A stretch of DNA of 35,193 nucleotides from Gammaproteobacteria bacterium (GTDB taxonomy: Bacteria; Pseudomonadota; Gammaproteobacteria; Steroidobacterales; Steroidobacteraceae), in NCBI GenBank assembly GCA_028293765.1, contig JAQGOG010000002.1, positions 1-35,193 on the forward strand, in the 5' to 3' direction. The position numbers and the translations under genes were made by a program. Below the pieces are notes generated by a model. The model ran no database searches. It saw only the letters and a program-made list of their open reading frames with translations, and had not been told where the DNA came from. Shown here in pieces: positions 20,827-35,193 of the stretch (positions within the stretch are counted from its first letter, which is position 1; every line of letters starts with the position of its first letter).

Positions 20827-23800
20827 ATGCGCCGCCTGCTCCTCCTCACCGCCGGCTTCCTGATCTTCCTCGCGGTGGCCGTGCCGACGGCGGCCGTTTA
20901 TTACTTGGTATTCACAGAGGGCGGATTCCAGCTCATCGTGCGTCACATCCCGCGCAAGATCGGGGGCACGCGGCTCGATATAGTCAATCCGGGCGGCACC
21001 ATTGCACACGGCATTCACGTCGAGCGGCTCGAAATCGAACACGATCTCGTTCATCTGCGCATCGAAGACATTCGCGGCCGGGTCAGGTTGGCGCCACTGC
21101 TGTTGCAGACCATTCGCTCCCCGGATGCCTACATAGGCAGCGTTCACATCCAGGTAAAGCGGCGTACCAAGCCGCCGCTTCCGGGCCAGCCGCTATTCGT
21201 GCCCCGATGGCTGATCGTCAACGCGGAACACACGCGTATCGCCAATGTCACGCTTGACGTACCGAACGGTTTCCATCTCGAAGCGACGGATCTTTTGGGT
21301 TCCGCCGTCATTCGCCATCGCACGATCCGCCTCTTCGACGCCCAGGTGCAGTGGGGCGACGCGCATGTCTCGGGTATCGGTGTGTTGCGAGCCGCCGATT
21401 CCTTGGCGTTCGATGTCGACGGCCGCATCAACTGGGACCCCGTAGGGCAGCCTGCATGGGCCGTCTTCGGCACGGCCAAGGGAAATCTGAGCGCGGCGTC
21501 GATCGTCGCGCACACCACCGCACCGTTCCGGGCCGACTTTACGGGCCGCGCACTCGATCTCACCAATCGCTGGCATTGGCTCGGGAACGCGGTGGTGCAT
21601 GACTTCGATCTGCGCTCGTGGGGCGTTGGCGGGCCACTCGGAATCATCACGGGCGAGTTCGTCCTACACGGGAATTCCGCGGGCTTCGGCGGAAGCGGTC
21701 CCGCGCATCCGACCGGGCTGCATGCAGGCCTGTTTCAGGCGGAATTTGACGGGAAGTATGCCAACCACGTGCTGACGGCGAGGCACATGGAGGCCCGGCA
21801 CATCGCCTCCGGCGCCACCGTCGCCGGCACCGGCACAATCGAGGTCGTAAAGAACGGACCGCGCCTGGATCTGCAAGGCAATTGGCATGACTTCCGCTGG
21901 CCGCTCATCGGGAAGGAGGTTCCTTTCCGCAGCCCGTCCGGCGAGTTCACGCTGCGCGGAATTCTGCCGTATGACGTGCACTTGAACGGAATCGCCAGAG
22001 TGCGTGACCTGCCACCGATGCCGGGGCAGGTTGACGGGTCGCTCGGGAAAGATCACTTCGCGTATACGAGGGCGGAAATCGACCTGTTCACCGGGCATGC
22101 GAGCTTGAACGGGCTGGTGACCTGGGCGCCGGGAAATACCTGGTCGACCGCGGGACAGGCGACCGGAATCGATCCGAGTTACTTCCGCCCGGACCTGCCC
22201 GGCAAGTTGGATTTTACGCTCGCGGCTGCAGGGCAGAGCTTCGATCCCAAGGGCGACGTTACGCTGCAGTTCCAGAGCTTGAGCGGCCGGCTGCGCGGGG
22301 CGACCGCGAGCGGCGGCGGTAAACTGTTCTACTCCGGGACCGGCTGGGGTTTCGACAACGTCCGCGTTGGGCTCGGGCGTACGAGCCTCGCCCTGGATGG
22401 CCATATCAACAAAGATGTCGATCTGCGCTTCGCCGTAGCCGCCGAGGATCTCAGTCTCCTCGCACCGGAGAGCCGCGGCCAGCTCAAGGCGGCGGGCACG
22501 GTTCGCGGCACTCTTGCGGATCCGATGATCGCTGCCACGGCTCATGGCAGCGGCATTCACCATGAAGGGATCACACTCGACAGCTTCGACGCCGCTATCG
22601 ATTTCGACCCTCACCCGGAACACGACTCCAGGATCGATGCGCATCTGCGCAACCTCACCTACCAGGACCGGACTTTCCAGAGTGTTGCCTTCACGCTTGG
22701 CGGAAAACCTGCGAACTACGGCGTGCGGCTCGACGTCAAAGCCCGGGGGCTCGCTGCGACCGCCAAGGCGACGGGCGCATTCGCCCAAGGGATTTTCCGC
22801 GGGGAACTCAACGCCCTCACGATCGAGGGCAACGAGCCACTGCGGCTCCAGCTCGAGAGGCCGGTGGGGCTCCTCGTGTCGCAGTCCGAGGCGCGGGTCG
22901 AATGGCTCTGTCTCGTCGGGACACCGGCGAGCGTCTGCGCGGACGGCAACTGGAATCCTGCGCAGTGGTCGGCCACGGTTACCGCCAACCAACTGCCGAT
23001 CAACACGCTCACAGCGGGATTAACTCCGTCGGTGGATTACCAGGGCACGATTAGCATCAATGCCCGCGTTTTCGCCGAAGGACAGGACCCGGTGCAGGGG
23101 ACGGCGCGCCTGGAGCTCGCCGATGCGCAGCTCTCGCACAAATTATTGAGTCATCGAGTCGAGCACACCACGCTCGGCTCCGGCACTGTGAATGTGACCG
23201 CTGCACGCACGGCAATCAACGCCGAAGCCGTGCTCGAAGACGGCGAGGTCGGCACGATCAAAGCCAATTTCACCGCACAGCGCAACACATCGCAATGGCA
23301 GAACATACCGGTCCGGGGCGAGATCCACGCGCAGACGGCGGAGCTCAATTTGATCTCCCTCTACATGCCGGACATTGACCGTGCCGCCGGCCAGCTCACG
23401 GTGGACGTACAGATCACGGGAACACTGGGCACGCCGCTGGTGAACGGCCTGGTTAAGGTTTCCGATGCCGAAGTCGATCTCTACCAGGTCAACCTCGGGT
23501 TGCGTCAGCTCGGCCTGGAAGCGCGCCTCACCGATAATGGCCTCAACTTTACCGGGTCCGCGCGCGTTGGATCGGGGACGGCCACTGCAGGCGGCCATCT
23601 CGAGTGGCGCGAGTCGCTGCCTTATGGGAAATTCTCTCTGAAGGGGACGAATCTGCGCGTCGTGGACGTCCCGGAAGCACAGATCGACGCGTCGCCGGAT
23701 CTCGACTTCAACGTCAATGGACGCAAAATAGAAGTCACGGGCAGCGTCAAAGTACCCAACGCCAAGATCGAACCTAAGGATCTGACAGGCGCGGTTCGCG

Positions 23801-24546
23801 CCTCGTCCGATGAGGTGGTCATGGGAGATGAAGAGGAGGACCCCGCGAAGCGGTTTACGGTAGTCAGCACGATTACCATGAGTCTGGGCGATCATGTGAG
23901 CATGCAGACATCGGGACTGACCGGAAGGCTCACTGGAAACATCACTGTCCGCAGCGGATACGACGCCATCACGCGCGCGACGGGCGAGCTTTCGGTCGAG
24001 GAAGGCAAGTACACGGCCTATGCACACAACCTCGACATCCAGCGCGGGCGCCTAATTTTTACGGGCGGCCCTGTCGACGATCCCGGCATCGACATCCGCG
24101 CGATACGGAAATTTCCGGACGTCACTGCAGGCGTGAACGTCCGCGGCACACTCCTGCAACCTCGATTGTCGTTCTTCTCCGAGCCCTCCCTGGCGCAGTC
24201 GGAGATCGTCTCGCTCATCCTATCCGGGTCGCTGTCCACGGCGCAGACCCGGCAGAACGGCGCTGGCAATGCCGCGCTGGTTCAGGGCGGGGCCATGCTC
24301 GCGCAGCAGCTTGGATCGCATGTCGGGATCCAGGACGTGGGCGTCGAGTCGGACCTGCTGACGAACGACACGTCGCTCGTGCTGGGAAGATACCTCTCGC
24401 CGCGGCTGTATGTGAGCTACGGCGTCAGCCTCACCCAGCAGCTCAACACGTTGAAGCTGCGATACAGCCTTGGAGATCACTGGGTCGTAAGGACCGAGGT
24501 GGGACAGGCGCGGGGTGCGGATTTGATTTACAGCATCGAGAAGTAG
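20827..24546 (+). CDS. tamB: Translocation and assembly module protein TamB
   Basis: This 1239-aa protein has one N-terminal inner-membrane anchor (MRRLLLLTAGFLIFLAVAV). A very long beta-rich periplasmic body of repeated strand pairs follows, as in AsmA/TamB bridge proteins. The C-terminal DUF490 (TamB) domain includes GKYTAYAHNLDIQRGRLIF, GPVDDPGIDIRA and LFSEPSLAQSEIVSLILSG-like segments. It ends GADLIYSIEK. TamB spans the periplasm, contacts TamA and forms a hydrophobic groove for phospholipids. Length is close to E. coli TamB (1259 aa). It converges on argH with a 67-nt gap in which I saw only a weak 5-bp stem. Confidence 0.95.
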   Translation: MRRLLLLTAGFLIFLAVAVPTAAVYYLVFTEGGFQLIVRHIPRKIGGTRLDIVNPGGTIAHGIHVERLEIEHDLVHLRIEDIRGRVRLAPLLLQTIRSPDAYIGSVHIQVKRRTKPPLPGQPLFVPRWLIVNAEHTRIANVTLDVPNGFHLEATDLLGSAVIRHRTIRLFDAQVQWGDAHVSGIGVLRAADSLAFDVDGRINWDPVGQPAWAVFGTAKGNLSAASIVAHTTAPFRADFTGRALDLTNRWHWLGNAVVHDFDLRSWGVGGPLGIITGEFVLHGNSAGFGGSGPAHPTGLHAGLFQAEFDGKYANHVLTARHMEARHIASGATVAGTGTIEVVKNGPRLDLQGNWHDFRWPLIGKEVPFRSPSGEFTLRGILPYDVHLNGIARVRDLPPMPGQVDGSLGKDHFAYTRAEIDLFTGHASLNGLVTWAPGNTWSTAGQATGIDPSYFRPDLPGKLDFTLAAAGQSFDPKGDVTLQFQSLSGRLRGATASGGGKLFYSGTGWGFDNVRVGLGRTSLALDGHINKDVDLRFAVAAEDLSLLAPESRGQLKAAGTVRGTLADPMIAATAHGSGIHHEGITLDSFDAAIDFDPHPEHDSRIDAHLRNLTYQDRTFQSVAFTLGGKPANYGVRLDVKARGLAATAKATGAFAQGIFRGELNALTIEGNEPLRLQLERPVGLLVSQSEARVEWLCLVGTPASVCADGNWNPAQWSATVTANQLPINTLTAGLTPSVDYQGTISINARVFAEGQDPVQGTARLELADAQLSHKLLSHRVEHTTLGSGTVNVTAARTAINAEAVLEDGEVGTIKANFTAQRNTSQWQNIPVRGEIHAQTAELNLISLYMPDIDRAAGQLTVDVQITGTLGTPLVNGLVKVSDAEVDLYQVNLGLRQLGLEARLTDNGLNFTGSARVGSGTATAGGHLEWRESLPYGKFSLKGTNLRVVDVPEAQIDASPDLDFNVNGRKIEVTGSVKVPNAKIEPKDLTGAVRASSDEVVMGDEEEDPAKRFTVVSTITMSLGDHVSMQTSGLTGRLTGNITVRSGYDAITRATGELSVEEGKYTAYAHNLDIQRGRLIFTGGPVDDPGIDIRAIRKFPDVTAGVNVRGTLLQPRLSFFSEPSLAQSEIVSLILSGSLSTAQTRQNGAGNAALVQGGAMLAQQLGSHVGIQDVGVESDLLTNDTSLVLGRYLSPRLYVSYGVSLTQQLNTLKLRYSLGDHWVVRTEVGQARGADLIYSIEK

Positions 24547-24613: not shown

Positions 24614-25798
24614 TCAACCTTTGAGTTTCGCCGCGACGCGCTTATAGGCTTCCCGAAAAGGAATACCTTCCGTGACGACCAGGCGGTTCGCTTCTTCAGC
24701 AGCGTGGATCGCCGGATCGAGTTTGATCCGATCGGGACGAAACCTCATCGCGTCGATGGCGGGTGGCAGGATGTCGAGCGTCTGGAGCGCGAGGTCGATG
24801 CCGCGGAACAACGGGAATTTCAGCAGCTGCAGGTCGCGTTGGTAACCCGAAGGAAGCTTGGCGCAGATGCTGAGCGCCTCCGTGAGGCACGCCTGCGCGC
24901 TGGCCGAACGCCCCCGGATGAGCTCGAAAACGTCGGGGTTGCGCTTTTGCGGCATGATCGAGGAACCGGTCGTGAAGGCCTCTGGCAGCTCGAGGAAACC
25001 AAATTCCTGCGTAAAGAACAGGAGCGTGTCCGCCGCGAAGCGGCCGAGGTCCTGCATGAGCAGTGTGATCTCGAAAAGCAGCTGTGACTCAGCTTTACCG
25101 CGCGAGAGTTGTACCGCCGTCACCGGTTCCTGCGCGACGGCAAACCGCAGTTTCGCACGCGTTGCCTCGCGATCGATCGGCAGGCCGGGAGTGCCGTAAC
25201 CCGCGGCGGAACCCAACGGGCTCTTACCGTTTCGACGCTGCACGGTGCGCAGACTCTCGGCGTCGTCCCGGACCTCAGCCGCAAATCCCCCCGCCCACAA
25301 GGGTACCGAACTCGGCATCGCCTGTTGCATGTGAGTGTAGCCGGGAAGGGTCGTACTCTGCTCACGCGTCGCCAACCGATCGAGGGCCTCGGCAACGTTC
25401 GTGGCACCGGCACTCAGCTCGTCGATCGCGTCACGCAGGTAGAGCCGAATCGCCGTAAGCACCTGATCGTTGCGCGAGCGGCCCAGATGAACACGCCCGC
25501 CGGCAGCCCCGATGCGTTCGGTCAGGCGCCATTCCAACGCGGTCTGGCCGTCTTCGTCCGTAAGCTCGATATGCCAGAGGCCGCGGGCATGTTCATCGGC
25601 CAAGGCGGTGAGTCCGGAGCGGATTGTGTCCAAATCCTCGGCGGACAGCAGCTTCTGCGCCTGAAGCATCTCCGCATGGGCGATCGACGCCTGCACGTCA
25701 TAGCGCACCAGCCGCTCATCCAGCCCGTAATCCTCGCCCGCCGTGTAATTCAACACGCGATCATCGAGCGGCGCTCCCTTGTCCCAGAGGCGTGTCAC
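24614..25798 (-). CDS. argH: Argininosuccinate lyase (short form)
   Basis: This 394-aa enzyme splits argininosuccinate to arginine and fumarate, the last step of arginine synthesis. It shows the superfamily blocks GRSRNDQV (107-113), GYTHMQQAMPSS (153-164, His 156) and the signature GSSIMPQKRNP (278-288). It stops at AYKRVAAKLKG, where ordinary ArgH (about 460 aa) continues for 60-70 residues, so the C-terminal helical cap is missing. The stop is real in this sequence and is followed by tamB in the opposite direction. The start is GTG 25798, 4 nt after the argB stop. It is the last gene of the operon. Confidence 0.93.
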   Translation of the reverse strand: MTRLWDKGAPLDDRVLNYTAGEDYGLDERLVRYDVQASIAHAEMLQAQKLLSAEDLDTIRSGLTALADEHARGLWHIELTDEDGQTALEWRLTERIGAAGGRVHLGRSRNDQVLTAIRLYLRDAIDELSAGATNVAEALDRLATREQSTTLPGYTHMQQAMPSSVPLWAGGFAAEVRDDAESLRTVQRRNGKSPLGSAAGYGTPGLPIDREATRAKLRFAVAQEPVTAVQLSRGKAESQLLFEITLLMQDLGRFAADTLLFFTQEFGFLELPEAFTTGSSIMPQKRNPDVFELIRGRSASAQACLTEALSICAKLPSGYQRDLQLLKFPLFRGIDLALQTLDILPPAIDAMRFRPDRIKLDPAIHAAEEANRLVVTEGIPFREAYKRVAAKLKG

Positions 25799-25802
25799 CT
25801 TA

Positions 25803-26747
25803 TCAACCGCCCGCCTGTGCGCTTTCCTGCTCGGCGGGCGTGAGGGCGTTGATGTCGGCGACGATCAACGTGCCGGTGCCTTCGTTCGTGAACACCTCGC
25901 CGAGAATTCCCTCGGGGGCCTTGTACGAAACGACGTGCACCCGGCGTACCCCGCCGCGAATCGCATCTTCAATCGCCTTGGCCTTCGGAAGCATGCCATC
26001 CAGGATACGACCCTCTTCGCGCAGACGCTTGAGCCCGGGCAGATCCGTGTAGGAGATGAGCGAGCCCGGGTCCTCCACGTTGCCCAGGATGCCAGGGGCG
26101 CCCGTGCACAGAACCAGCTTTTCCGCACCGAGTGCGGCACCGATCGCAGCGGCGACGGTATCGGCGTTGATGTTGAGGAGAACGCCTGTCTGGTCGGCCG
26201 ACAGCGGACTTACTACCGGCATCAGGCCGTTGTCGAGAAGCTTGCGGATCACCGTCGCGTCCACGGCATCGATGTCGCCGACGAAGCCATAGTCAACCAT
26301 CTCGCCATTGGCGGCGACTTTCACCGGCGGCCGCTTGTGAGCGCGTACCAGCCCGGCGTCGACACCGCTGATCCCGACGGCGTCGATATCCAGATCGCGA
26401 CAGATTCCGAGAATTCGCGTGTTGATGAGACCGTTCAACACCATCGCAGTCACGTCGATGGACTTCTGATCGGTGACGCGCCGGCCCTCCACCATCCGTG
26501 TCGTCAGGCCCAGTGCATCGGACAGCTCCGTGAGCTGCGGGCCGCCGCCGTGAACCATTACGACGCGCACGCCAAAGTAATGGAGAATGGCGATCTGCTC
26601 GATGAGGACGCGTGTCGACTCGGTGTCGGCGAACACCCCTCCGCCCGCTTTGACCACGAAGGTCTTGCCCTTATACATCCGGATGTACGGGGCAGCGCTT
26701 TTCAATGCGCGAATCGCGAGGGTCTGGTCGCCTTTGTGCATGATCAT
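25803..26747 (-). CDS. argB: N-acetylglutamate kinase-type enzyme (stand-alone)
   Basis: This 314-aa amino-acid kinase phosphorylates N-acylated glutamate. The motifs are FVVKAGGGVF (Lys for phosphate binding), VVMVHGGGPQL, the LNINADTVAAAIG substrate segment and the late KAKAIEDAIRGGVRRVHVV. It ends soon after the kinase fold and has no GNAT domain, unlike the fused kinase-synthase of Xanthomonas. It therefore cannot supply acylglutamate itself. Given the carbamoyltransferase next door, the acyl group could be acetyl or succinyl. ATG 26747 has AGGA 6 nt upstream; an ATG at 26741 is nearly equivalent. Confidence 0.93.
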   Translation of the reverse strand: MIMHKGDQTLAIRALKSAAPYIRMYKGKTFVVKAGGGVFADTESTRVLIEQIAILHYFGVRVVMVHGGGPQLTELSDALGLTTRMVEGRRVTDQKSIDVTAMVLNGLINTRILGICRDLDIDAVGISGVDAGLVRAHKRPPVKVAANGEMVDYGFVGDIDAVDATVIRKLLDNGLMPVVSPLSADQTGVLLNINADTVAAAIGAALGAEKLVLCTGAPGILGNVEDPGSLISYTDLPGLKRLREEGRILDGMLPKAKAIEDAIRGGVRRVHVVSYKAPEGILGEVFTNEGTGTLIVADINALTPAEQESAQAGG

Positions 26748-26755
26748 TGGAGTTC

Positions 26756-27757
26756 CTACATTCCCTTCAACAGTTTATAGAGCACCGCCATCTGGACGAC
26801 CAGGCGGTTGTATGCCTCGTGTTGGACGGCGCTGCGGGGGCTGTCTAGCACTTCGTCGGCTACGGCTGTGTTACGTCGTACGGGCAGGCAGTGCATGAGG
26901 CGGCAATCCGTAGCCGTGCGGGCAAACCAGTCATTGCGAACGCACCAACTCGTCAGCGCTTTGCGCAGGCCCGCGTCACCCTCGGCATTGCCGTAGCACG
27001 CGGTCGCACCCCACTCCTTCGCGTAGACGATATTAGCGCCAGCGAGGGCGTCTTCGCGGTCCGTTGTCTCGCGTACCGACCCGCCAGACAACGCAGCGGC
27101 GCGGCGCGCCCTCTCCATGATTTCCGGCGGTAGCGCGAAACCGTCTGGCCGCAGCACGATCACTTCCATGCCCCGATATGCCGCCATGTGAACGGCAGCC
27201 GAGGGTACGGCGAGCGGCAGCGCGCGCGGGTGGTAGACCCACGAAAGCACGAAGCGGCCGTCTCGCGGCACGCCGAGATCGTCCATCGTCTTCCAGTCGG
27301 CAAGCGCCTGGCAGGGATGGTTCATCGCCGACTCGAGATTCACGAGCGGTTTGTCGACGAGCGCCGCCATCGCGTTGAACGTAGTCTCCGCGAGATCGCT
27401 CTTCAAGTCCTTGCCGTCGGCGAAGGCGCGGATACCTAGAGCATCACAATATGAAGCGAGCACGGGTATGCCCTCGCGCACATGCTCAGCCGCGGCACCG
27501 CTCATCTCGACACCGAGGCGCGTCTCCAGCTGCCAGGTGCCCTGACCGGGCGTGATGACGAACGAGCTGCCGCCCAGCCGCGCCATCCCCGCCTGAAACG
27601 AGGCGAGGGTCCGCAACGACGGATTGAAAAACACCAGGCCGAGGATTTTCCCGGCGAGGGCCTGGGGCTCGGGGTGCTTTTCCAGCCGGCGCGCGAGCTC
27701 GAGCAGCGCCACGACCTCGTCGCGCTCGAGATCGGCAAGATCAAGAAAGCGCCTCAT
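26756..27757 (-). CDS. argF': N-acyl-ornithine carbamoyltransferase (N-acetyl/N-succinylornithine type)
   Basis: This 333-aa transcarbamylase resembles the Xanthomonas acetylornithine and Bacteroides succinylornithine enzymes more than ordinary OTCase. Shared blocks are FFNPSLRT (43-50), TPGQGTWQLETRLGV (69-83), AEHVREGIPVLASYCD, NHPCQALADW, WVYHPRALPLAVP and HCLPVRRN. By my colinear alignment, the acyl-selecting position (Glu 92 in Xanthomonas, Pro 90 in Bacteroides, recalled) is Ala 90. The region after LPVRRN lacks the modified Lys of the Xanthomonas enzyme. The usual SxRTR carbamoyl-phosphate motif reads SLRTL here. The product would be an N-acylcitrulline needing deacylation before ArgG. 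ATG 27757 overlaps the argD stop by 4 bp (ATGA). Confidence 0.85.
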   Translation of the reverse strand: MRRFLDLADLERDEVVALLELARRLEKHPEPQALAGKILGLVFFNPSLRTLASFQAGMARLGGSSFVITPGQGTWQLETRLGVEMSGAAAEHVREGIPVLASYCDALGIRAFADGKDLKSDLAETTFNAMAALVDKPLVNLESAMNHPCQALADWKTMDDLGVPRDGRFVLSWVYHPRALPLAVPSAAVHMAAYRGMEVIVLRPDGFALPPEIMERARRAAALSGGSVRETTDREDALAGANIVYAKEWGATACYGNAEGDAGLRKALTSWCVRNDWFARTATDCRLMHCLPVRRNTAVADEVLDSPRSAVQHEAYNRLVVQMAVLYKLLKGM

Positions 27758-28929
27758 GCAGGCAGGTCCGCCAGGGTGTCCCTCAGCATGTCGACGTGCT
27801 CTTCTTCCAGAATGAACGCCGGCAGAAGTCGCAGGACATTCGGATCGCTGGCGGTACCGGCCAGAATGCCGCACTCGAGCAACTCGGCCTGAATCTCCTT
27901 GGCGGGGCGGCTCGTGCGCAGCCCGGTCAGAAAGCCGGCGCCCTGGTGCCCCGTGATCGGCCCGACGATGCAGGTTTCCCGAATGTAGCCGGCCACGCGC
28001 CGCACACGCTCGAGCAGGTTTTCCGACTCGATCGCTTCGATCACCGCTTCCATCACCGCGCAGGCCATCGGGCCCCCGCCGAACGTCGTTCCCAGCAGAT
28101 CCAACTTCAGCGCGGCGGACACCTTCGCGGTGGTCAACAGCGCCGCGCAGGGGAAGCCGTTTCCGAGAGCCTTCGCCGTGGTGATCATGTCCGGCATGAC
28201 GCCATACAAGTTGGCGGCGAACGGATGCCCCGTTCGGCCGACCCCGCACTGGACTTCATCGAAGATCAACAGTGCGCCCACTTCGTCGCAACGGCGGCGC
28301 AGTGCTTCGAGAAACGGGGCGCCGAGATCGATTGCGCCGGCCAGACCCTGCACCGGCTCGACGATCACGGCGGCGGTCTTGTCCGCAACGTGTTGGTTGA
28401 TCGCGGCGAGGTCGCGTCGTGGAATGAAGCTCACATCGAACGGCGCGCGCGGAAAGTTGTACCACTTCTGCATCGCTCCCCACGTGACGGCACCGGCGGC
28501 CGCGGTGCGGCCGTGGAAGCCCCCCTCGATCGCCGCGATGTGGGGTCGGGAAGTCATGCGGAAAGCGAGCTTCATCGCGTTCTCGTTCGCTTCCGCGCCG
28601 CTGTTCACGAAGAACACGCTGGTGAAGTCGAGTTTCGAGAAGCGTACGAGGCGCTCCGCCGCACGGACTCGAACCTGCATAGGCACGGCGTTCGTCTGGA
28701 AGTTGCACGACTGCGCCTGCTTGGTCAGTGCCTCTGTCCAGCCAGGATGCCCATAGCCGAGGGAGGCGACGGCGTGGCCGCCGTACAGATCGAGCACGCG
28801 CTCGCCTCTGCTGTTCATCAGCCAGACCCCCTGAGCCGATACGACTTCGAGCGGGTATTGCGCAAACACCGGCGCAAGATAGTCATGGGCGGGCGTGCCG
28901 GGCTGCGCTGCTGAGAGTGCGTTATTCAT
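27754..28929 (-). CDS. argD: N-acylornithine aminotransferase
   Basis: This 391-aa class-III PLP aminotransferase converts N-acylglutamate semialdehyde to N-acylornithine. It has the GAEANENAMK cofactor region (111-120), GFHGRT (138-142), Asp 224 in FDEVQCGVGRTG for the pyridine nitrogen, and Schiff-base Lys 253 in TTAKALGNGFP. Length is typical. The start at ATG 28929 lies 11 nt after the argC stop. An ATG at 28950 would overlap argC and has no ribosome site. Specificity for acetyl- or succinyl-ornithine is not evident from sequence. Confidence 0.93.
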   Translation of the reverse strand: MNNALSAAQPGTPAHDYLAPVFAQYPLEVVSAQGVWLMNSRGERVLDLYGGHAVASLGYGHPGWTEALTKQAQSCNFQTNAVPMQVRVRAAERLVRFSKLDFTSVFFVNSGAEANENAMKLAFRMTSRPHIAAIEGGFHGRTAAAGAVTWGAMQKWYNFPRAPFDVSFIPRRDLAAINQHVADKTAAVIVEPVQGLAGAIDLGAPFLEALRRRCDEVGALLIFDEVQCGVGRTGHPFAANLYGVMPDMITTAKALGNGFPCAALLTTAKVSAALKLDLLGTTFGGGPMACAVMEAVIEAIESENLLERVRRVAGYIRETCIVGPITGHQGAGFLTGLRTSRPAKEIQAELLECGILAGTASDPNVLRLLPAFILEEEHVDMLRDTLADLPA

Positions 28930-28940
28930 AGCGTCTCGTT

Positions 28941-30002
28941 TCAAGTCCATCCGGGAGCCGGTGCCGTGAGACCGGAATCTTCCGGCAGATCGAACATCCG
29001 GTTCATCCATTGCACGGCGCCGCCTGCGGCACCTTTGTTGAGATTGTCGACGGCGCACATTACTGCGACGGTACGGCCATTGGCCGCGGCGGAAAGATGT
29101 GCATAGTTGCTGGTCGCCACTTCTTTCACGCGCGGGGCCCGGTCCGTTACGCGGACAAAAGCGGAACCAGCATAGAAGTCGCGCAGGGCCGCCAGCACGC
29201 GCGCGGTGTCGAGCGGGGACTTGAGAGACGCCTGCACGGTGACGTGAATACCGCGCGCATAGGGTCCCGAATGAGGAACGAACGCGAAGTCCGCTTCGAC
29301 TCCCGATGCGGCACGCGCGCAAGCCGCAACTTCCGGCGCGTGACGATGAGACAGAGCGTTGTAGCTATAGAGATCGCTATGGCGGACGGGGTGATGCGTT
29401 CCTTCGATCGGCTTGCGTCCCGCACCGGTGCTGCCGGTTACGCCGCTGACAAACAGAGTGGGCGGCACGAGTCCGAGTGCGAGCAATGGAACGCTCGCGA
29501 GCAGCGTTGCCGTAGCAAAGCAGCCCGGGTGGGCGACGTGCGGCGTTTCGAGCTTCTGCAGATGCTCGGGTACGGCGCACGTAAATTCGCCGATGCGCCC
29601 CGGAGCGCCATGTGGATGCTTGTAAACGGCCTCATACGCCTGCGCCGAGCTGTAGCGGAAATCCGCGGAAATATCGACCACTCGCGGTCGGGTTCCTGCT
29701 CCGGACGCAGCCTTCAACAGCGAATCGATCAGAGCCGCGGAAACGCCGTGGGGCGCGGCCGAGAACACCGCGGCCTGCGGCGTCCCCACGATCAGCTTCT
29801 CGACCTCAGCCTGCGACTTGAAGCGGGTATCCGCGAAAATGCTCGCCAGGTGAGGAAATGCAGTTCCGAGCGGCTCGCCCGGCTGGCTATCCGACATCAC
29901 GGCAGCGAGCTGGAATTGCGGATGACCGGCAATCAGACGCAGCAGTTCGCCGGCCACGTAACCGGTGCCGCCGAGGACGACAGCGGGAATCGTCGCGCTC
30001 AT
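28941..30002 (-). CDS. argC: N-acetyl-gamma-glutamyl-phosphate reductase
   Basis: This 353-aa enzyme makes N-acylglutamate semialdehyde with NADPH. It has the N-terminal Rossmann motif VVLGGTGYVAGELLRL, the catalytic Cys 161 in VAHPGCFATAT, GVTGSTGAGRKP, the HRHAPEV segment and the late DNLNKGAAGGAVQWMN. Length matches the long (type 1) ArgC form. ATG 30002 overlaps the stop of the upstream P-loop gene by 4 bp (ATGA), indicating translational coupling of the two. Confidence 0.95.
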   Translation of the reverse strand: MSATIPAVVLGGTGYVAGELLRLIAGHPQFQLAAVMSDSQPGEPLGTAFPHLASIFADTRFKSQAEVEKLIVGTPQAAVFSAAPHGVSAALIDSLLKAASGAGTRPRVVDISADFRYSSAQAYEAVYKHPHGAPGRIGEFTCAVPEHLQKLETPHVAHPGCFATATLLASVPLLALGLVPPTLFVSGVTGSTGAGRKPIEGTHHPVRHSDLYSYNALSHRHAPEVAACARAASGVEADFAFVPHSGPYARGIHVTVQASLKSPLDTARVLAALRDFYAGSAFVRVTDRAPRVKEVATSNYAHLSAAANGRTVAVMCAVDNLNKGAAGGAVQWMNRMFDLPEDSGLTAPAPGWT

Positions 30003-31075
30003 GGCGCCGGCGCTGCCTTCAGGCCAATCGCCTCGATCACGCAGTCGCCCAACGCCGCCCCGTCCGTGATTGCATTGAACGCGGCCACACCCAGTTGCGA
30101 TGTAATGATTTCCACGCCCACCTGATTGTCGGTGGAGGGCCCGGTCACGACACACGGCTCGATACCGAAGCGATCGCGCAGCAGCTTTACGCCGCCCCAC
30201 GCCGCGACCGGATCGTTCGCGGAGAGAATGACTCCCGTGAGCGCGGCGCGGATGTCCGGGCACTCGAGAATGGCGTCGACGCCGTAGGTGCCGAGGATTC
30301 CGTCACCCAGTTCGAACACGATGACGTCCGGCTTTCCCGTGGAAAGATCGGTCAACATGGTGCGTGTGAGCGCGGGGCCGTTAACCTTCGTCGTGGTCAC
30401 GATGCCAAGATCTGTGAAAATCGCCGAGCGGCGCGCACCCGAGTCCTCCATCGCGAGAATGTCGCGGCGGAGCGAGACGCCCGTTGCCTTGAACGCGTCG
30501 ATCACCAGGCCCCGATGGCGCATGCGGCTGATGACCGCACAAGCGGCGGCCGTCTTCCCGGCTTCCATACAGGTTCCCGCGAGAGCCACTACGGGGACGC
30601 CGCGCGTCTCGAGCTTCGCATCGAAGTCGAGCGGCTTGTGGCCCACACGCGCCGGCACGCCGATACGCTCGCCGAGATAGGGGAAATGAAGCACCACACC
30701 CAGTACGCGGCAGTCGAATGGCTTGCCCTTGTCCGGGTTGATCGAATCACAGATTCCCAGCACCCCGCCGATATTCAACATCTGAATGATGTCGCCCGGC
30801 TTCACCGCCGGCGGCACGTGGCCGGAGTAGCCGAACAGCGCCTTGCGATGACCGAGCGCCCCTACGACAATGTCGCCCTTGCCTACCTTGGCCATGCGAC
30901 CGCTGGTCAGCTCGAGCGTGTTATAGGTCGACTTGTTGGTCAGCACCTCGACGACCACGACGACGCCTTCCTCGGAAGGAATATCCGCGGCGATCCGCAC
31001 TTCGTGAGAGAGGCCGCACGCCTGCGTGACCGAGGCAACCTTGTCGACGACTACGCTTCGCATTCCGTTGACCAT
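29999..31075 (-). CDS. P-loop NTPase-like protein of unknown function inside the arginine operon
   Basis: I do not recognise this 358-aa protein by name. The N-terminal half (about 1-155) is beta-rich with KPGDIIQMLNIGGVLGICDS. The C-terminal half opens with a Walker-A-like loop GTCMEAGKT (167-175), then DAFKATGVSLRRDI, TDLGIVTTTKV and PDVIVFELGDGILG. This layout recalls DUF1611-type proteins and dethiobiotin-synthetase-like folds. It lies 2 nt after argG and overlaps argC by 4 bp, so it is firmly part of the pathway transcript. As I recall, a DUF1611 protein (DgcN) acetylates glutamate. The operon lacks a glutamate N-acyltransferase and an acylcitrulline deacylase, and this protein could fill either gap, which is inference. 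ATG 31075 has AAGGA 10 nt upstream. Confidence 0.75.
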   Translation of the reverse strand: MVNGMRSVVVDKVASVTQACGLSHEVRIAADIPSEEGVVVVVEVLTNKSTYNTLELTSGRMAKVGKGDIVVGALGHRKALFGYSGHVPPAVKPGDIIQMLNIGGVLGICDSINPDKGKPFDCRVLGVVLHFPYLGERIGVPARVGHKPLDFDAKLETRGVPVVALAGTCMEAGKTAAACAVISRMRHRGLVIDAFKATGVSLRRDILAMEDSGARRSAIFTDLGIVTTTKVNGPALTRTMLTDLSTGKPDVIVFELGDGILGTYGVDAILECPDIRAALTGVILSANDPVAAWGGVKLLRDRFGIEPCVVTGPSTDNQVGVEIITSQLGVAAFNAITDGAALGDCVIEAIGLKAAPAP

Positions 31076-31077
31076 CT

Positions 31078-32313
31078 TTACGCGTCCTTCGCGTGTTCGC
31101 CGGCACGACGGTGAAACACACCGGTGAGCGACACGATCTTTGAAAAGCCCAGCGCGTCCGCGGGCGACCATTCGCCGACGGACTCTCCATAGACGCCCTT
31201 GGACGCCGCCATGAGCGAGTAGGGGGACTCGACGCCCTCTATGAACAGATTTCCTGGCCGTAGCAGGATGTGCACGTCGCCAGTTACGCGTTCCTGCGAG
31301 GACAGAAGCAGAGCCTCGATGTCACGACAGACGGGATCCAGCAGCTGCCCCTCGTGCACGAGATCGCCGTAGGGCTGCGCCACGAGCTCCTTGATGCGCT
31401 GTTGGCGGCCCGTCAACACGAGCTTCTCGAGCTCACGATGAGCGGTGAGCAGGGCCTCCGCGGCCGGAGCTTCGAATGCCACGCGACCTTTGGTGCCGAT
31501 GATTGTGTCGCCGAGATGGATGCCGCGCCCGATCCCGAATGGCGCGGTCACAGACTCGAGCGCCTCGATCACCGCAACCGGCGACAGAGACTTGCCATCG
31601 AGCCCAACGGGACGGCCATTTTTAAACGTAATGACATGACGCTCGGGAGTGCGTGGATTCGTGAACGCGTCGCGCGTGAGCACCCACGCGTTGTCGGGAA
31701 TGCTGCCTGCCGAGGTGAGTGTTTCCTTGCCGCCGATAGTAACGCCCCACAAGCCGCGGTTAATGGAATAGGCGGCACCGAATGGCGGCACCGGGAGGCC
31801 ACGCTTTTGCAGGTATTCCAGCTCCTCCTGCCGCTTGAATGCGCGGTCCCGCACCGGAGCGATCACTTCCAGCTCCGGCGCCAGCGTGCGCAGGGCCACT
31901 TCGAAGCGCACCTGGTCGTTACCGGCGGCAGTGCAGCCGTGAGCGATGGAGTTGGTGCCGAGCTTGCGCGCCATGTGCGCAATGGTTTGCGCCTGCATGG
32001 CCCGCTCGGCGCCCACGCATAGCGGATATAACTGTCCGCGCTTGACGTTTCCCATGATGAGAAAGCGCAGCACCTGCTCGAAGTAGTCCGCGCGAGCGTC
32101 GATCTGGTGATGTTCCACGGCGCCCAGCGCTCGAGCGCGCTCGCCGAGCGTGCGCGCGGTGGCCTCGTCGATACCGCCAGTGTCGACGGTTACCGTGATT
32201 ACCGGGCGGCCGTAATTCTCGGCGACCCACGGCACCAGAAATGAAGTGTCGAGCCCACCGGAATAGGCAAGGACAATGGGCTTGGCGCCCGCGCTGGAAG
32301 CGGTGTTGGGCAT
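31078..32313 (-). CDS. argG: Argininosuccinate synthase
   Basis: This 411-aa enzyme joins citrulline and aspartate with ATP. It shows the N-type ATP-pyrophosphatase loop AYSGGLDTSFLVPW, the citrulline/aspartate-site block HGCTAAGNDQVRFE, SINRGLWGVTIGGKE and the late GDTIIGTKGRVAFEAPA. Length is normal for bacterial ArgG. It begins 8 nt after the argR stop and ends 2 nt before the P-loop gene. Whether it accepts free citrulline only, or tolerates an acylated form, cannot be told from sequence; known enzymes use free citrulline. Confidence 0.95.
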   Translation of the reverse strand: MPNTASSAGAKPIVLAYSGGLDTSFLVPWVAENYGRPVITVTVDTGGIDEATARTLGERARALGAVEHHQIDARADYFEQVLRFLIMGNVKRGQLYPLCVGAERAMQAQTIAHMARKLGTNSIAHGCTAAGNDQVRFEVALRTLAPELEVIAPVRDRAFKRQEELEYLQKRGLPVPPFGAAYSINRGLWGVTIGGKETLTSAGSIPDNAWVLTRDAFTNPRTPERHVITFKNGRPVGLDGKSLSPVAVIEALESVTAPFGIGRGIHLGDTIIGTKGRVAFEAPAAEALLTAHRELEKLVLTGRQQRIKELVAQPYGDLVHEGQLLDPVCRDIEALLLSSQERVTGDVHILLRPGNLFIEGVESPYSLMAASKGVYGESVGEWSPADALGFSKIVSLTGVFHRRAGEHAKDA

Positions 32314-32321
32314 GCTGTTCT

Positions 32322-32774
32322 CTAAACTCGAAAGATCGCTTGCAGGCGGCTGACCAGCTCGTCCTGCGCGCGCGCATTCGCGGTTGCTATGAATATCGTG
32401 TCGTCGCCGGAAATCGTTCCGGCCACTTCAGGCCATTCGGCCTTGTCGATCGCTACGGCGACGCTCTGAGCCGCGCCGATCGTCGTCCTCAGCACGGTAA
32501 TCGACGGACCGGCACGCTTAAAGCCGCGCACGAACTGCGCGAGCATGCCGAAATCGCCGTTCGCGCGTGTCACCTCGTCCGGAGGCAGCACATACCGGCC
32601 GCTCGCCTTCAGAACACCCAGGTCGCGCAGATCCCGGCTGATCGAGGACTGCGTCACCTGGTGCCCTTGCTGCTGCAGAAGGCGTACGAGATCTGCCTGC
32701 CGGCGCACGAGTCCGTCCCGCAGGATGCGCATAATCGCGCCCTGCCGTTCGATCTGCTGCGCGTCGGTCAGCAC
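32322..32774 (-). CDS. argR: Arginine repressor ArgR
   Basis: This 150-aa protein has an N-terminal winged helix (AIMRILRDGLVRRQADLVRLL, then the recognition helix QSSISRDLRDLGVLK). The C-terminal arginine-binding hexamer domain has AVAIDKAEWPEVAGTISGDDTIFIAT. Length matches E. coli ArgR (156 aa). I chose GTG 32774 because the predicted promoter covers the region further upstream. A GTG at 32783 and an open frame to 32825 exist, but the latter would begin inside the promoter. It heads the arginine operon, so it likely represses its own transcript in response to arginine. Confidence 0.92.
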   Translation of the reverse strand: MLTDAQQIERQGAIMRILRDGLVRRQADLVRLLQQQGHQVTQSSISRDLRDLGVLKASGRYVLPPDEVTRANGDFGMLAQFVRGFKRAGPSITVLRTTIGAAQSVAVAIDKAEWPEVAGTISGDDTIFIATANARAQDELVSRLQAIFRV

Positions 32775-32792
32775 TTCCCGCACTCTATTCGC

Positions 32793-32821
32793 ATAATAGT
32801 GCGTGCATTGTGCATATTCAT
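32793..32821 (-). promoter_or_regulatory. Predicted promoter of the arginine operon with ARG-box-like half-site
   Basis: On the minus strand, TATTAT (32793-32798) fits a -10 box. A 17-nt spacer separates it from a weak -35 (ATGAAT, 32816-32821). Transcription would start near 32786, just before the chosen argR start. The dyad TGCAT-GAAT-ATGCA (32811-32824) overlaps the -35 and includes TGAAT, half of the ArgR operator consensus. The second half-site is poor. Confidence 0.45.
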
Positions 32822-32884
32822 GCACGGGACGTCAAGCACCGCGGCGCCTGTGGGGCTTTGACTCTTACGTGGCTTCAGACTAGG

Positions 32885-32910: not shown

Positions 32911-33168
32911 ATGAAATCCTGGCCGGTTCAAGACGCCAAAGCGCGCTTCAGCGAGTTCCTGAAAGCAAGTCTCACGGAGGGACCGCAAATCGTCACGCTA
33001 CGCGGCGTCGAAGCAGCGGTTCTCGTGCCGATGCAGGAGTGGCGCAGCTTGCGTGAGCGGGCCCGTCCGAGTTTGAAGACGTTGCTCCTTGCCCCAGAAG
33101 CTCGAGGCGACCTGAATATCCCTGCGCGCGGGCGGCTGCGGCGGCGGGCACCACGAAACATAGACTGA
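32911..33168 (+). CDS. Type II antitoxin, Phd/YefM family
   Basis: This 85-aa protein starts MKSWPVQDAKARFSEFLKAS, the typical Phd/YefM DNA-binding fold. TLRGVEAAVLVPMQEWRSL follows. A basic, probably disordered tail (RGRLRRRAPRNID) would wrap the toxin. It neutralises the VapC-type toxin encoded 3 nt downstream and probably autoregulates the pair through the palindrome at 32885-32902. ATG 32911 has AGGAG 5 nt upstream. Confidence 0.9.
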   Translation: MKSWPVQDAKARFSEFLKASLTEGPQIVTLRGVEAAVLVPMQEWRSLRERARPSLKTLLLAPEARGDLNIPARGRLRRRAPRNID

Positions 33169-33171
33169 TCT

Positions 33172-33600
33172 GTGTATCTCCTCGACACGAATGTCGTCTC
33201 CGAGCTGCGCAAGCGCAAGCCGCACCAGGGCGTGGTGACCTGGATTCAAGCTGTGCCGGAGGAGGCGCTGTACTTATCTGCCGTGACGATTGGCGAGATA
33301 CAGGCTGGGATAGAAATTACCCGCCAACAGGACGCCGAGAAGGCCGAGGAGATCGAGACTTGGGTGGATGCTGTCGCGCAAAGTTATAGCGTCCTGTCAG
33401 TGGACGCTCCCATCTTCCGTCGCTGGGCACAACTTACGCACGGCAGGCCAGATCACCATCTCGAAGACGCGCTCATTGCTGCCACCGCCTTGGTGCGTGA
33501 GCTAACGGTGGTCACCCGTAATGTAAGTGACTTTGAGCCCTTCGGTGCCCCCCTGATCAATCCGTTTACAAGCCCCGCAATTACGCGCAAATCGGTCTGA
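33172..33600 (+). CDS. vapC: VapC-type PIN-domain ribonuclease toxin
   Basis: This 142-aa PIN protein carries the acidic metal-binding residues Asp 5 (YLLDTNVVSE), Glu 42 (TIGEIQAGIE), Asp 99 (HHLEDALIAATA) and Asp 120 (TRNVSDFEPFG), all intact. Toxins of this type cut tRNA or rRNA when freed from antitoxin. The start is GTG 33172, 3 nt after the antitoxin stop, so the toxin is translationally coupled. Pairing of a Phd-type antitoxin with VapC is common. Confidence 0.92.
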   Translation: MYLLDTNVVSELRKRKPHQGVVTWIQAVPEEALYLSAVTIGEIQAGIEITRQQDAEKAEEIETWVDAVAQSYSVLSVDAPIFRRWAQLTHGRPDHHLEDALIAATALVRELTVVTRNVSDFEPFGAPLINPFTSPAITRKSV

Positions 33601-33631: not shown

Positions 33632-35193
33632 TCAGTGCGCATCCGCTGGAGGCGCGCCAGGCGGTTTGACCTTTTGCATCAGCGGGATCAGGACCGTTGC
33701 GATGGCGAGGCAGACCATGATTGCGAGGAACGCGTCCGCGAACGCTTGAGTTTGCGCTTCGCGGAAGGTGATCGACCACAACTGACGCAACGCTGCCGTG
33801 GCGCCGTGCACTGCGTCGCCGTTCCAACGGGATGTATCGGTGGCCGCGACGCGCGCCAGGAGACTTTGCGCACTCGCATTGGCACTGTTCAGGTGCTCTG
33901 CCAGATGCAGGAAATGCAGATTCGAGCGGTCGTTCAGGATCGTTCCGCAGACGGCGATGCCGATGGCGCCCCCGAGATTGCGCATCAGGTTGAACAGGCC
34001 CGAGGAGAGCTTGAGCCGTTCCGGTGCCAACGCCCCCAGCGTCAGCGTCACGGTCGGAGCCACCGCGAATTGCTGGCCGAAGCCGCGCAGCGCCTGCGGC
34101 AGCAACAGCTCACGCCAGCCCCACTCGTGGGTGATGGGTGCAAAGCTCCACAAGCTCAACGTAAAACACGCAAAGCCAAACATCATCAGCCAGCGCAAGT
34201 CGATGCGCCTGGCGAAGTATGTGTAGATCGGAATTGCGCTGACTTGAAAGAGGCCGGTCGAGAAGACAGCCAGACCGATCTGCCACGCGCTGAAACCGCG
34301 GACGCGACCGAGGAACAGCGGAGTCAGGTAGATCGTCGCAAAAATGGCGATGCCGCTGACGAAGGAGAACAGGCAGCCGAGCGCGAAGTTGCGGATCTTC
34401 AGAGCGCCTAAATCAACGATGGGGTGTGGATGCGTCAGACTTCGCCAGACGAACGCCACTCCCGCGAGAACCGAGATCCAGGCCGTTGTGCGAATGGTGT
34501 CGTCGCTCAGCCAGTCCCAGCGGGCGCCCTCCTCGAGGGTGTATTCCAGGCAACCCAGGCAGAGCGCCATCAACACCATGCCGAGATAATCGGCACCGCG
34601 TAACAGCGACAGGTTCGGTTTGTCCACCCGCACGAGGATCGGCACCACCACGGCCACGAAGATACCGGGGACGAGATTGATGAAGAACAGCCAGTGCCAG
34701 GAGTAGTGGTCGGTAATCCAGCCGCCGACGGTCGGCCCTAGTGTCGGCGCCAGCGAGGAGATCGCCCCGACCGTCGCGGCGGCGATGACGCGCTGGTTTC
34801 CGGCGAAATAAATGAAGGCCGTCGTAAACACCGTCGGAATCATCGAGCCGCCGAGGAAGCCCTGCAGCGCGCGAAAGACGATCATGCTGTGGATGTCCCA
34901 GGCGGCGCCGCACAGCAGGCTGGTCGCGGTAAAACCCACCGCGGAAGCGCAGAACAGCCAGCGGGTCGACATGACTCGGGACAGCCAGCCAGAGAGCGGG
35001 ATGACGATGATCTCGGCGATCAGATAGCTGGTTTGCACCCAGGCCGTTTCGTCGGTGCCGGCCGAGAGGCCACCGCCGATATCGCGAAGTGAAGCGGATA
35101 CGATCTGGATGTCGAGCAGAGCGATGAAGAAGCCGATGCACATCGCGCCGAAGGCGAGCACCTTCGCCGGCGTCGAGAGCTCATCGGGACGCA
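33632..35193 (-). CDS. DHA2-family MFS drug exporter (EmrB/QacA type), 5' end beyond window
   Basis: At least 519 residues are visible. The frame stays open to the right edge (RPDELSTPAKVLAFGAMCIGFF), so the start is outside the window; a GTG at 35161 is an internal candidate only. There are about 14 hydrophobic segments. Segment 1 has FFIALLDIQIVSASL and segment 4 the FRALQGFLGGSMIPTVF motif of DHA2 proton antiporters. GPTVGGWITDHYSWHWLFFIN follows. Members pump drugs or metabolites out, often with an EmrA-type periplasmic partner, which would lie to the right. The Pro-rich C-terminus (KPPGAPPADAH) is cytoplasmic. Confidence 0.9.
   Translation of the reverse strand, partial: RPDELSTPAKVLAFGAMCIGFFIALLDIQIVSASLRDIGGGLSAGTDETAWVQTSYLIAEIIVIPLSGWLSRVMSTRWLFCASAVGFTATSLLCGAAWDIHSMIVFRALQGFLGGSMIPTVFTTAFIYFAGNQRVIAAATVGAISSLAPTLGPTVGGWITDHYSWHWLFFINLVPGIFVAVVVPILVRVDKPNLSLLRGADYLGMVLMALCLGCLEYTLEEGARWDWLSDDTIRTTAWISVLAGVAFVWRSLTHPHPIVDLGALKIRNFALGCLFSFVSGIAIFATIYLTPLFLGRVRGFSAWQIGLAVFSTGLFQVSAIPIYTYFARRIDLRWLMMFGFACFTLSLWSFAPITHEWGWRELLLPQALRGFGQQFAVAPTVTLTLGALAPERLKLSSGLFNLMRNLGGAIGIAVCGTILNDRSNLHFLHLAEHLNSANASAQSLLARVAATDTSRWNGDAVHGATAALRQLWSITFREAQTQAFADAFLAIMVCLAIATVLIPLMQKVKPPGAPPADAH

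Follow-up and report, generated by a model that had tools for sequence, protein, structure and literature searches.

Introduction

Which enzyme carries out the first step of arginine synthesis, the step that commits glutamate to arginine, in an operon that holds no recognised gene for it? The question is raised by a 35,193-nucleotide stretch of DNA from a Gammaproteobacteria bacterium of the family Steroidobacteraceae (assembly GCA_028293765.1, contig JAQGOG010000002.1, positions 1-35,193; here "the window"), whose arginine operon contains a gene for a P-loop protein, here called X (29999-31075, reverse strand). The initial annotation, made from the sequence alone, proposed that X may be the enzyme that acylates glutamate at the outset. 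Genome comparison supports this: X can be regarded with good confidence as the first arginine enzyme, an N-acylglutamate synthase of a P-loop type that is neither GNAT nor ArgJ, because the known synthases tested are absent, X and the synthase domain PF04768 exclude each other, X replaces ArgJ in one distant genome (G268), and argR, argC and argB travelled with it. The step itself is known; the enzyme type would be new.

Linkage of X to arginine genes

In 5' to 3' order, the genes of the block are argR-argG-X-argC-argD-carbamoyltransferase-argB-argH. X starts 2 nt after the argG stop and ends in a 4-base overlap with the start of argC; the coordinates confirm the initial description of a 358-residue GTCMEAGKT protein in this position. 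Pfam and NCBIfam scans also agree that the operon is without N-acetylglutamate synthase (NAGS), without a GNAT domain on ArgB and without an ArgE/DapE-like deacylase. No M20 deacylase is encoded in the window; the 12 M20 matches of the window's own assembly (G000; 6.64 Mb, 211 contigs, completeness 98.8%) all lie on other contigs.

Of 60 related genomes, 47 carry an orthologue of X. Within the window's genus (37 genomes, G000 included) orthologues are found in 36, a few of the matches being contig-end fragments; among the 23 others of the order they are found in 11, at 58-70% identity, and two more genomes there hold only relatives at 31-34%. A sample of the phylum (299 genomes) gave five matches: G000, G268 at 70% identity, and three at no more than 37%.

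A scan of named genome contigs confirmed at least 389 relatives of X. The best 80 of these, ranked against X of G268, come from Steroidobacteraceae, Steroidobacter, Peristeroidobacter agariperforans, metagenome-assembled genomes titled by phylum or class only, and a few records with unlikely titles. Arginine genes adjoin X in all of these best 80 loci, and the full block is present in 60. argC follows X in 79, the remaining contig stopping there; argB is present in 67, the other 13 contigs stopping before it. argD is absent from three loci (L176, L189 and L206), and one (L195) reads argR-X-argC-argB up to the contig end. A further set of 23 X loci from the relatives and phylum searches was taken with flanks (some assemblies recur among the best 80): 22 carry the full eight-gene block, and G268 carries argR-X-argC-argB. 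Some of the loci seen are thus without argG, argD or the carbamoyltransferase gene; none was seen to have lost X, argC or argB.

Nine more distant loci (L086-L094, about 28-32% local identity to X) showed no matches to the arginine proteins of the window. The arginine link is therefore specific to the X clade.

Three of the metagenome-assembled genomes among the named records are titled Klebsiella pneumoniae (L186, L204) or Janthinobacterium lividum (L188) and contain a Steroidobacteraceae-type operon; these titles are probably wrong.

Mutual exclusion with PF04768 and the acyl group

In Xanthomonas-type operons, ArgB carries a fused synthase domain, PF04768. This domain occurs in 9 of the 60 relatives, and in none together with an X orthologue (Fisher test on 47/0/0/9: p 1e-10, a value that ignores the relatedness of the genomes). 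The exclusion amounts to few independent events, because the operon types switch as wholes. PF04768 was found in 0 of 14 control genomes, the nine relatives being its only positive control.

Eight of the nine PF04768 loci were recovered with flanks and show the other operon type, which reads carbamoyltransferase-argG-open reading frame-argB-argC-argH where complete. This NAGS-kinase fusion operon, which occurs in sister families within the order, follows an acylated carbamoyltransferase route like the X operon. The two differ in that the fusion operon has PF04768 on ArgB and Glu in the acyl-specificity column of its carbamoyltransferase, whereas the X operon has no such fusion and Ala in that column. 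In three fusion loci (L069, L070, L076) the open reading frame between argG and argB (359-377 aa) shows BLAST similarity to M20 deacylases; the X operon, in contrast, contains no M20 gene.

Four of the 60 genomes have neither an X orthologue nor PF04768. One (G329) is 72% complete. The other three (G343, G346 and G356) have no ArgJ either. Of 31 genomes searched with TIGR01890, which also detects ArgB, 28 gave a match and these three did not; a carbamoyltransferase search covering G343 and G346 found no match in these two. Judging from gene content, all three are probably arginine auxotrophs.

The specificity column bears on the acyl group. According to the Bacteroides study, succinyl substrates are favoured where the residue aligned with position 90 of BT3717 is S, P, A or V (PMC7311316). 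The window's carbamoyltransferase carries Ala90 at this position. The column is likewise Ala in all 22 readable sequences of the 23 flanked X loci (the G268 stretch is without this gene) and in 69 of 69 readable among the best 80 of the at least 389 named loci; it is Glu in all seven readable of the eight PF04768 loci. Glu also stands in the Xanthomonas enzyme, and Ala or Ser in PDB variants, which we take to be designed E92 mutants. The carbamoyltransferase type thus switches with the synthase type, and succinylated intermediates are therefore indicated with X. Given that X is the synthase, the acyl group is rather likely to be succinyl, a reading that rests on one residue. The acylornithine carbamoyltransferase of the initial annotation is accordingly present and can be refined: NCBIfam calls it acetyl-type, yet its residue is succinyl-type.

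The same succinyl-type residue is found in the succinyl arginine pathway of Bacteroidetes (BT3761, BT3717), whose first arginine enzyme is likewise encoded near argG. BT3761 shares more than 50% identity with the synthase Cabys_1732 (PMC7311316).

Replacement of ArgJ in a distant genome

The family of G268 lies outside the window's class. ArgJ (PF01960) is present in 58 of its 59 genomes, and the exception is G268. The family has no other X orthologue than that of G268 (70% identity), and two of its genomes hold 27-29% relatives plus ArgJ. In a tree, X of G268 nests inside Steroidobacteraceae X, several of the enclosing nodes having support of 0.87-1.0 and others 0.13-0.60. Its argR-X-argC-argB block lies on a 137-kb contig, surrounded by non-arginine genes, and the 19.5 kb fetched around X contain no argG, argD or carbamoyltransferase gene.

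The sole TIGR01890 match of G268 is the argB of this block. For ornithine carbamoylation G268 has a canonical enzyme (TIGR00658 over cut-off); no further G268 protein matches the window's carbamoyltransferase, so the acylornithine type was not found; no acylcitrulline is therefore expected there. If X is the synthase, the transferred unit would therefore consist of the regulator plus the enzymes of exactly the first three reactions, with ArgJ gone.

Candidate deacylases and the transacylase alternative

Among the 12 M20 proteins of G000, the only ArgE/DapE-type one without a leader peptide (leaders assessed by eye) is DapE (TIGR01246 over cut-off). Another (L008) has no leader and no match to ArgE/DapE queries, and for a third (L011) the leader call is ambiguous. 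In G339, a 1.6-Mb genome (98% complete) with the full X operon, the two M20 matches are DapE and a protein with a leader, and a DapD-like succinyltransferase gene, recognised by eye, lies about 6 kb from the DapE gene. DapE, an enzyme of lysine synthesis, cleaves off succinyl groups, and its double use is attractive for that reason. As sole deacylase candidate in general, DapE was dropped: an ArgE-type M20 over cut-off occurs in addition to X in one genome each of two families (f72 and f81), and G268 has one further M20 protein without an evident leader. It is kept for G000 and G339; in G000, DapE is the most likely candidate, with less certainty than the role of X.

X might instead be an ArgJ-like transacylase that transfers the acyl group of N-acylcitrulline or N-acylornithine onto glutamate and so performs both steps with no separate deacylase. 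This would account for both activities missing from the operon, for the presence of X where ArgJ is missing in G268, and for DapE being the only leaderless ArgE/DapE-type M20 of G000 and G339. It is nevertheless unlikely: the enzyme would need acylcitrulline in Steroidobacteraceae but acylornithine in G268, with its canonical ornithine carbamoyltransferase, at 70% identity between the two proteins. ArgJ uses an autocleaved Thr nucleophile, whereas X has a P-loop, and the f72 and f81 genomes carry X plus an ArgE-type M20.

Search for other known synthases

Known synthase types are classical ArgA, ArgJ, ArgO and S-NAGS, to which a Corynebacterium GNAT has been added; the types named in the available text of that source are ArgJ or GNAT-containing, except ArgO, whose fold is not stated there (PMC3827942). 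ArgJ was found in 0 of the 31 genomes and in 10 of the 14 controls; classical ArgA, over the TIGR01890 cut-off, in 0 of the 31 and in 1 of the 14. For the synthases tested, the gap seen in the operon extends to whole genomes: neither argA nor argJ comes over cut-off in the 31 genomes (TIGR01890, PF01960), and PF04768 matches none of the 47 genomes with an X orthologue.

A second alternative makes X an accessory or regulatory P-loop protein and assigns the acyl transfer to an unlinked, undetected GNAT. Weak matches to the GNAT end of TIGR01890 in 10 of 21 X-orthologue genomes, G000 included, lend this something, as do nine PF00583 matches in G268. Against it, the other 11 of the 21 match TIGR01890 once, in ArgB, and the single PF00583 match of G339 is RimI, over the TIGR01575 cut-off (the PF00583 search covered G339 and G268 and this one GNAT Pfam family). 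A regulator would also leave unexplained why ArgJ is absent from the sole X-gaining genome of the G268 family. Taken together, this makes an unlinked GNAT quite improbable.

Among open-licence PMC articles, no paper linking DUF1611 or a P-loop protein to the first arginine step was found, and arginine prototrophy of Steroidobacter was not established from them.

Fold and relatives of X

Six residues of X (Gly173, Lys174, Thr175, Lys196, Asp205 and Glu255) are invariant across 90 aligned sequences. Profile matches are faint: no NCBIfam model matches X at E<=0.1, and the only Pfam match is DUF1611 (PF07755), at 13.9 bits (E 0.035, residues 153-199) against a gathering cut-off of 25 bits. Among 10 X orthologues, DUF1611 matches two at E<=1 (best E 0.0023) and MobB matches eight (best E 0.0011). 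X was not filed as a DUF1611 member. Searching the sequences of solved structures with X itself or with profile A3 brought up weak, unrelated matches only.

A first AlphaFold model was poor in the N-terminal half (mean pLDDT 72); a more diverse alignment raised this to 95. In the predicted model, the P-loop domain resembles the folds of solved DUF1611 proteins, of DgcN (7XRJ) and of dethiobiotin synthetase. The comparisons covered mainly this domain, and no fold claim is made for residues 1-150. The DUF1611/DgcN lead of the initial annotation thus holds at the level of fold and fails at that of Pfam membership.

DgcN (PDB 7XRJ, "N-acetyltransferase DgcN-25328") is 12% identical to X. By name and route it is a D-glutamate N-acetyltransferase, whereas L-glutamate is the proposed substrate of X; it has a racemase gene, dgcA, as neighbour, and DgcN and DgcA together form a route from D-glutamate to L-glutamate. 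X has no such neighbour, the other seven genes of its block all being arginine genes. The DUF1611 proteins 2OBN and 2G0T, of unknown function, share the P-loop fold, although X falls below the Pfam cut-off of their family. Dethiobiotin synthetase (BioD) and CTP synthase act on other substrates, have no part matching the X N-terminus and are 10-20% identical to X.

The last alternative, also raised in the initial annotation, is that X removes the acyl group from N-acylcitrulline, which would suit an operon without ArgE and a family tied to acyl-amino-acid chemistry, some X-like relatives adjoining M20 proteins, but is very improbable: the first step would be left unfilled, G268 pairs X with a canonical ornithine carbamoyltransferase and no acylornithine type was found there, the best-named structural relative is an N-acetyltransferase, and the M20 neighbours would themselves be the hydrolytic partners.

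Proposed pathway

As a synthase, X would acylate L-glutamate on its amino group, most likely with succinyl. The next enzymes, ArgB, ArgC, ArgD and the Ala90 carbamoyltransferase, would handle N-succinyl intermediates as far as N-succinylcitrulline. Citrulline would be released by a deacylase encoded elsewhere, in this genome most likely DapE, leaving ArgG and ArgH to complete the route. X may work like DgcN. Its donor is less certain: acyl-coenzyme A is suggested because DgcN is named an N-acetyltransferase, and ATP plus free acid because the P-loop domain is dethiobiotin-synthetase-like. A bolder picture is tentative, and on balance doubtful: a new P-loop class making N-succinylglutamate, perhaps an ATP-driven succinate-glutamate ligase, with DapE shared with lysine synthesis and X-argC-argB as a transferable unit displacing ArgJ.

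Features of the window and distant relatives of X

The coordinates of the block are collected in Table 1. Directly upstream of argR, on the opposite strand, lies a Phd/YefM antitoxin and PIN-domain pair (32911-33600), and the arginine block is flanked by an MFS transporter gene (33632-35161) and a TamB gene (20827-24546).

Table 1. Arginine block of the window: genes and sites
Feature	Position	Strand	Remarks
X	29999..31075	-	358 aa, two domains: about 1-150 beta-rich, 155-358 P-loop domain; proposed N-acyl(succinyl)glutamate synthase
P-loop of X	30551..30577	-	GTCMEAGKT, residues 167-175
argR, arginine repressor	32322..32825	-	First gene of block; both Pfam domains over cut-off, NCBIfam below cut-off
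argG, argininosuccinate synthase	31078..32313	-	TIGR00032 over cut-off
argC, N-acylglutamylphosphate reductase	28941..30002	-	TIGR01850 over cut-off
argD-type acylornithine aminotransferase	27754..28929	-	PF00202 over cut-off; best NCBIfam ArgD models below theirs
N-acylornithine carbamoyltransferase, predicted succinyl-type	26756..27757	-	NF003384 "N-acetylornithine carbamoyltransferase" over cut-off
Ala90 codon of carbamoyltransferase	27488..27490	-	Acyl-specificity column; Glu in Xanthomonas acetyl enzyme
argB, N-acylglutamate kinase	25803..26747	-	314 aa, without GNAT domain; TIGR00761 over cut-off
argH, argininosuccinate lyase	24614..25798	-	Without S-NAGS fusion; TIGR00838 over cut-off

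Seven plasmid records carry X relatives, all below 60% identity. On plasmid NZ_CP085446.1 of Priestia megaterium KF18 (L253, 1700-10388), an X-like protein at 25% identity lies in a cluster annotated with an ornithine carbamoyltransferase, two ATP-grasp proteins, two thiamine-pyrophosphate proteins, an M20 protein, a flavin-dependent oxidoreductase and an isocitrate lyase/phosphoenolpyruvate mutase family protein; an IS6 transposase comes next. The gene content, judged by eye, suggests a cluster for a phosphonate product, in which the carbamoyltransferase may provide self-protection. In five of the distant loci (L088, L089, L091, L093 and L094; about 28-32% identity) a trio recurs: a 201-212-aa protein, which in L089 is flavin-reductase-like over cut-off, an M20 protein (PF01546 in L088, L089 and L091; by eye in L093 and L094) and the X-like protein.

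Significance

The annotation of prototrophs is known to fail at the first arginine step, as the available text on the Bacteroides case describes (PMC7311316). If the proposed role of X is true, this gap would be filled in Steroidobacteraceae, a succinylated arginine pathway would be placed in Proteobacteria, and the DUF1611-like superfamily would gain an L-amino-acid role beside DgcN.
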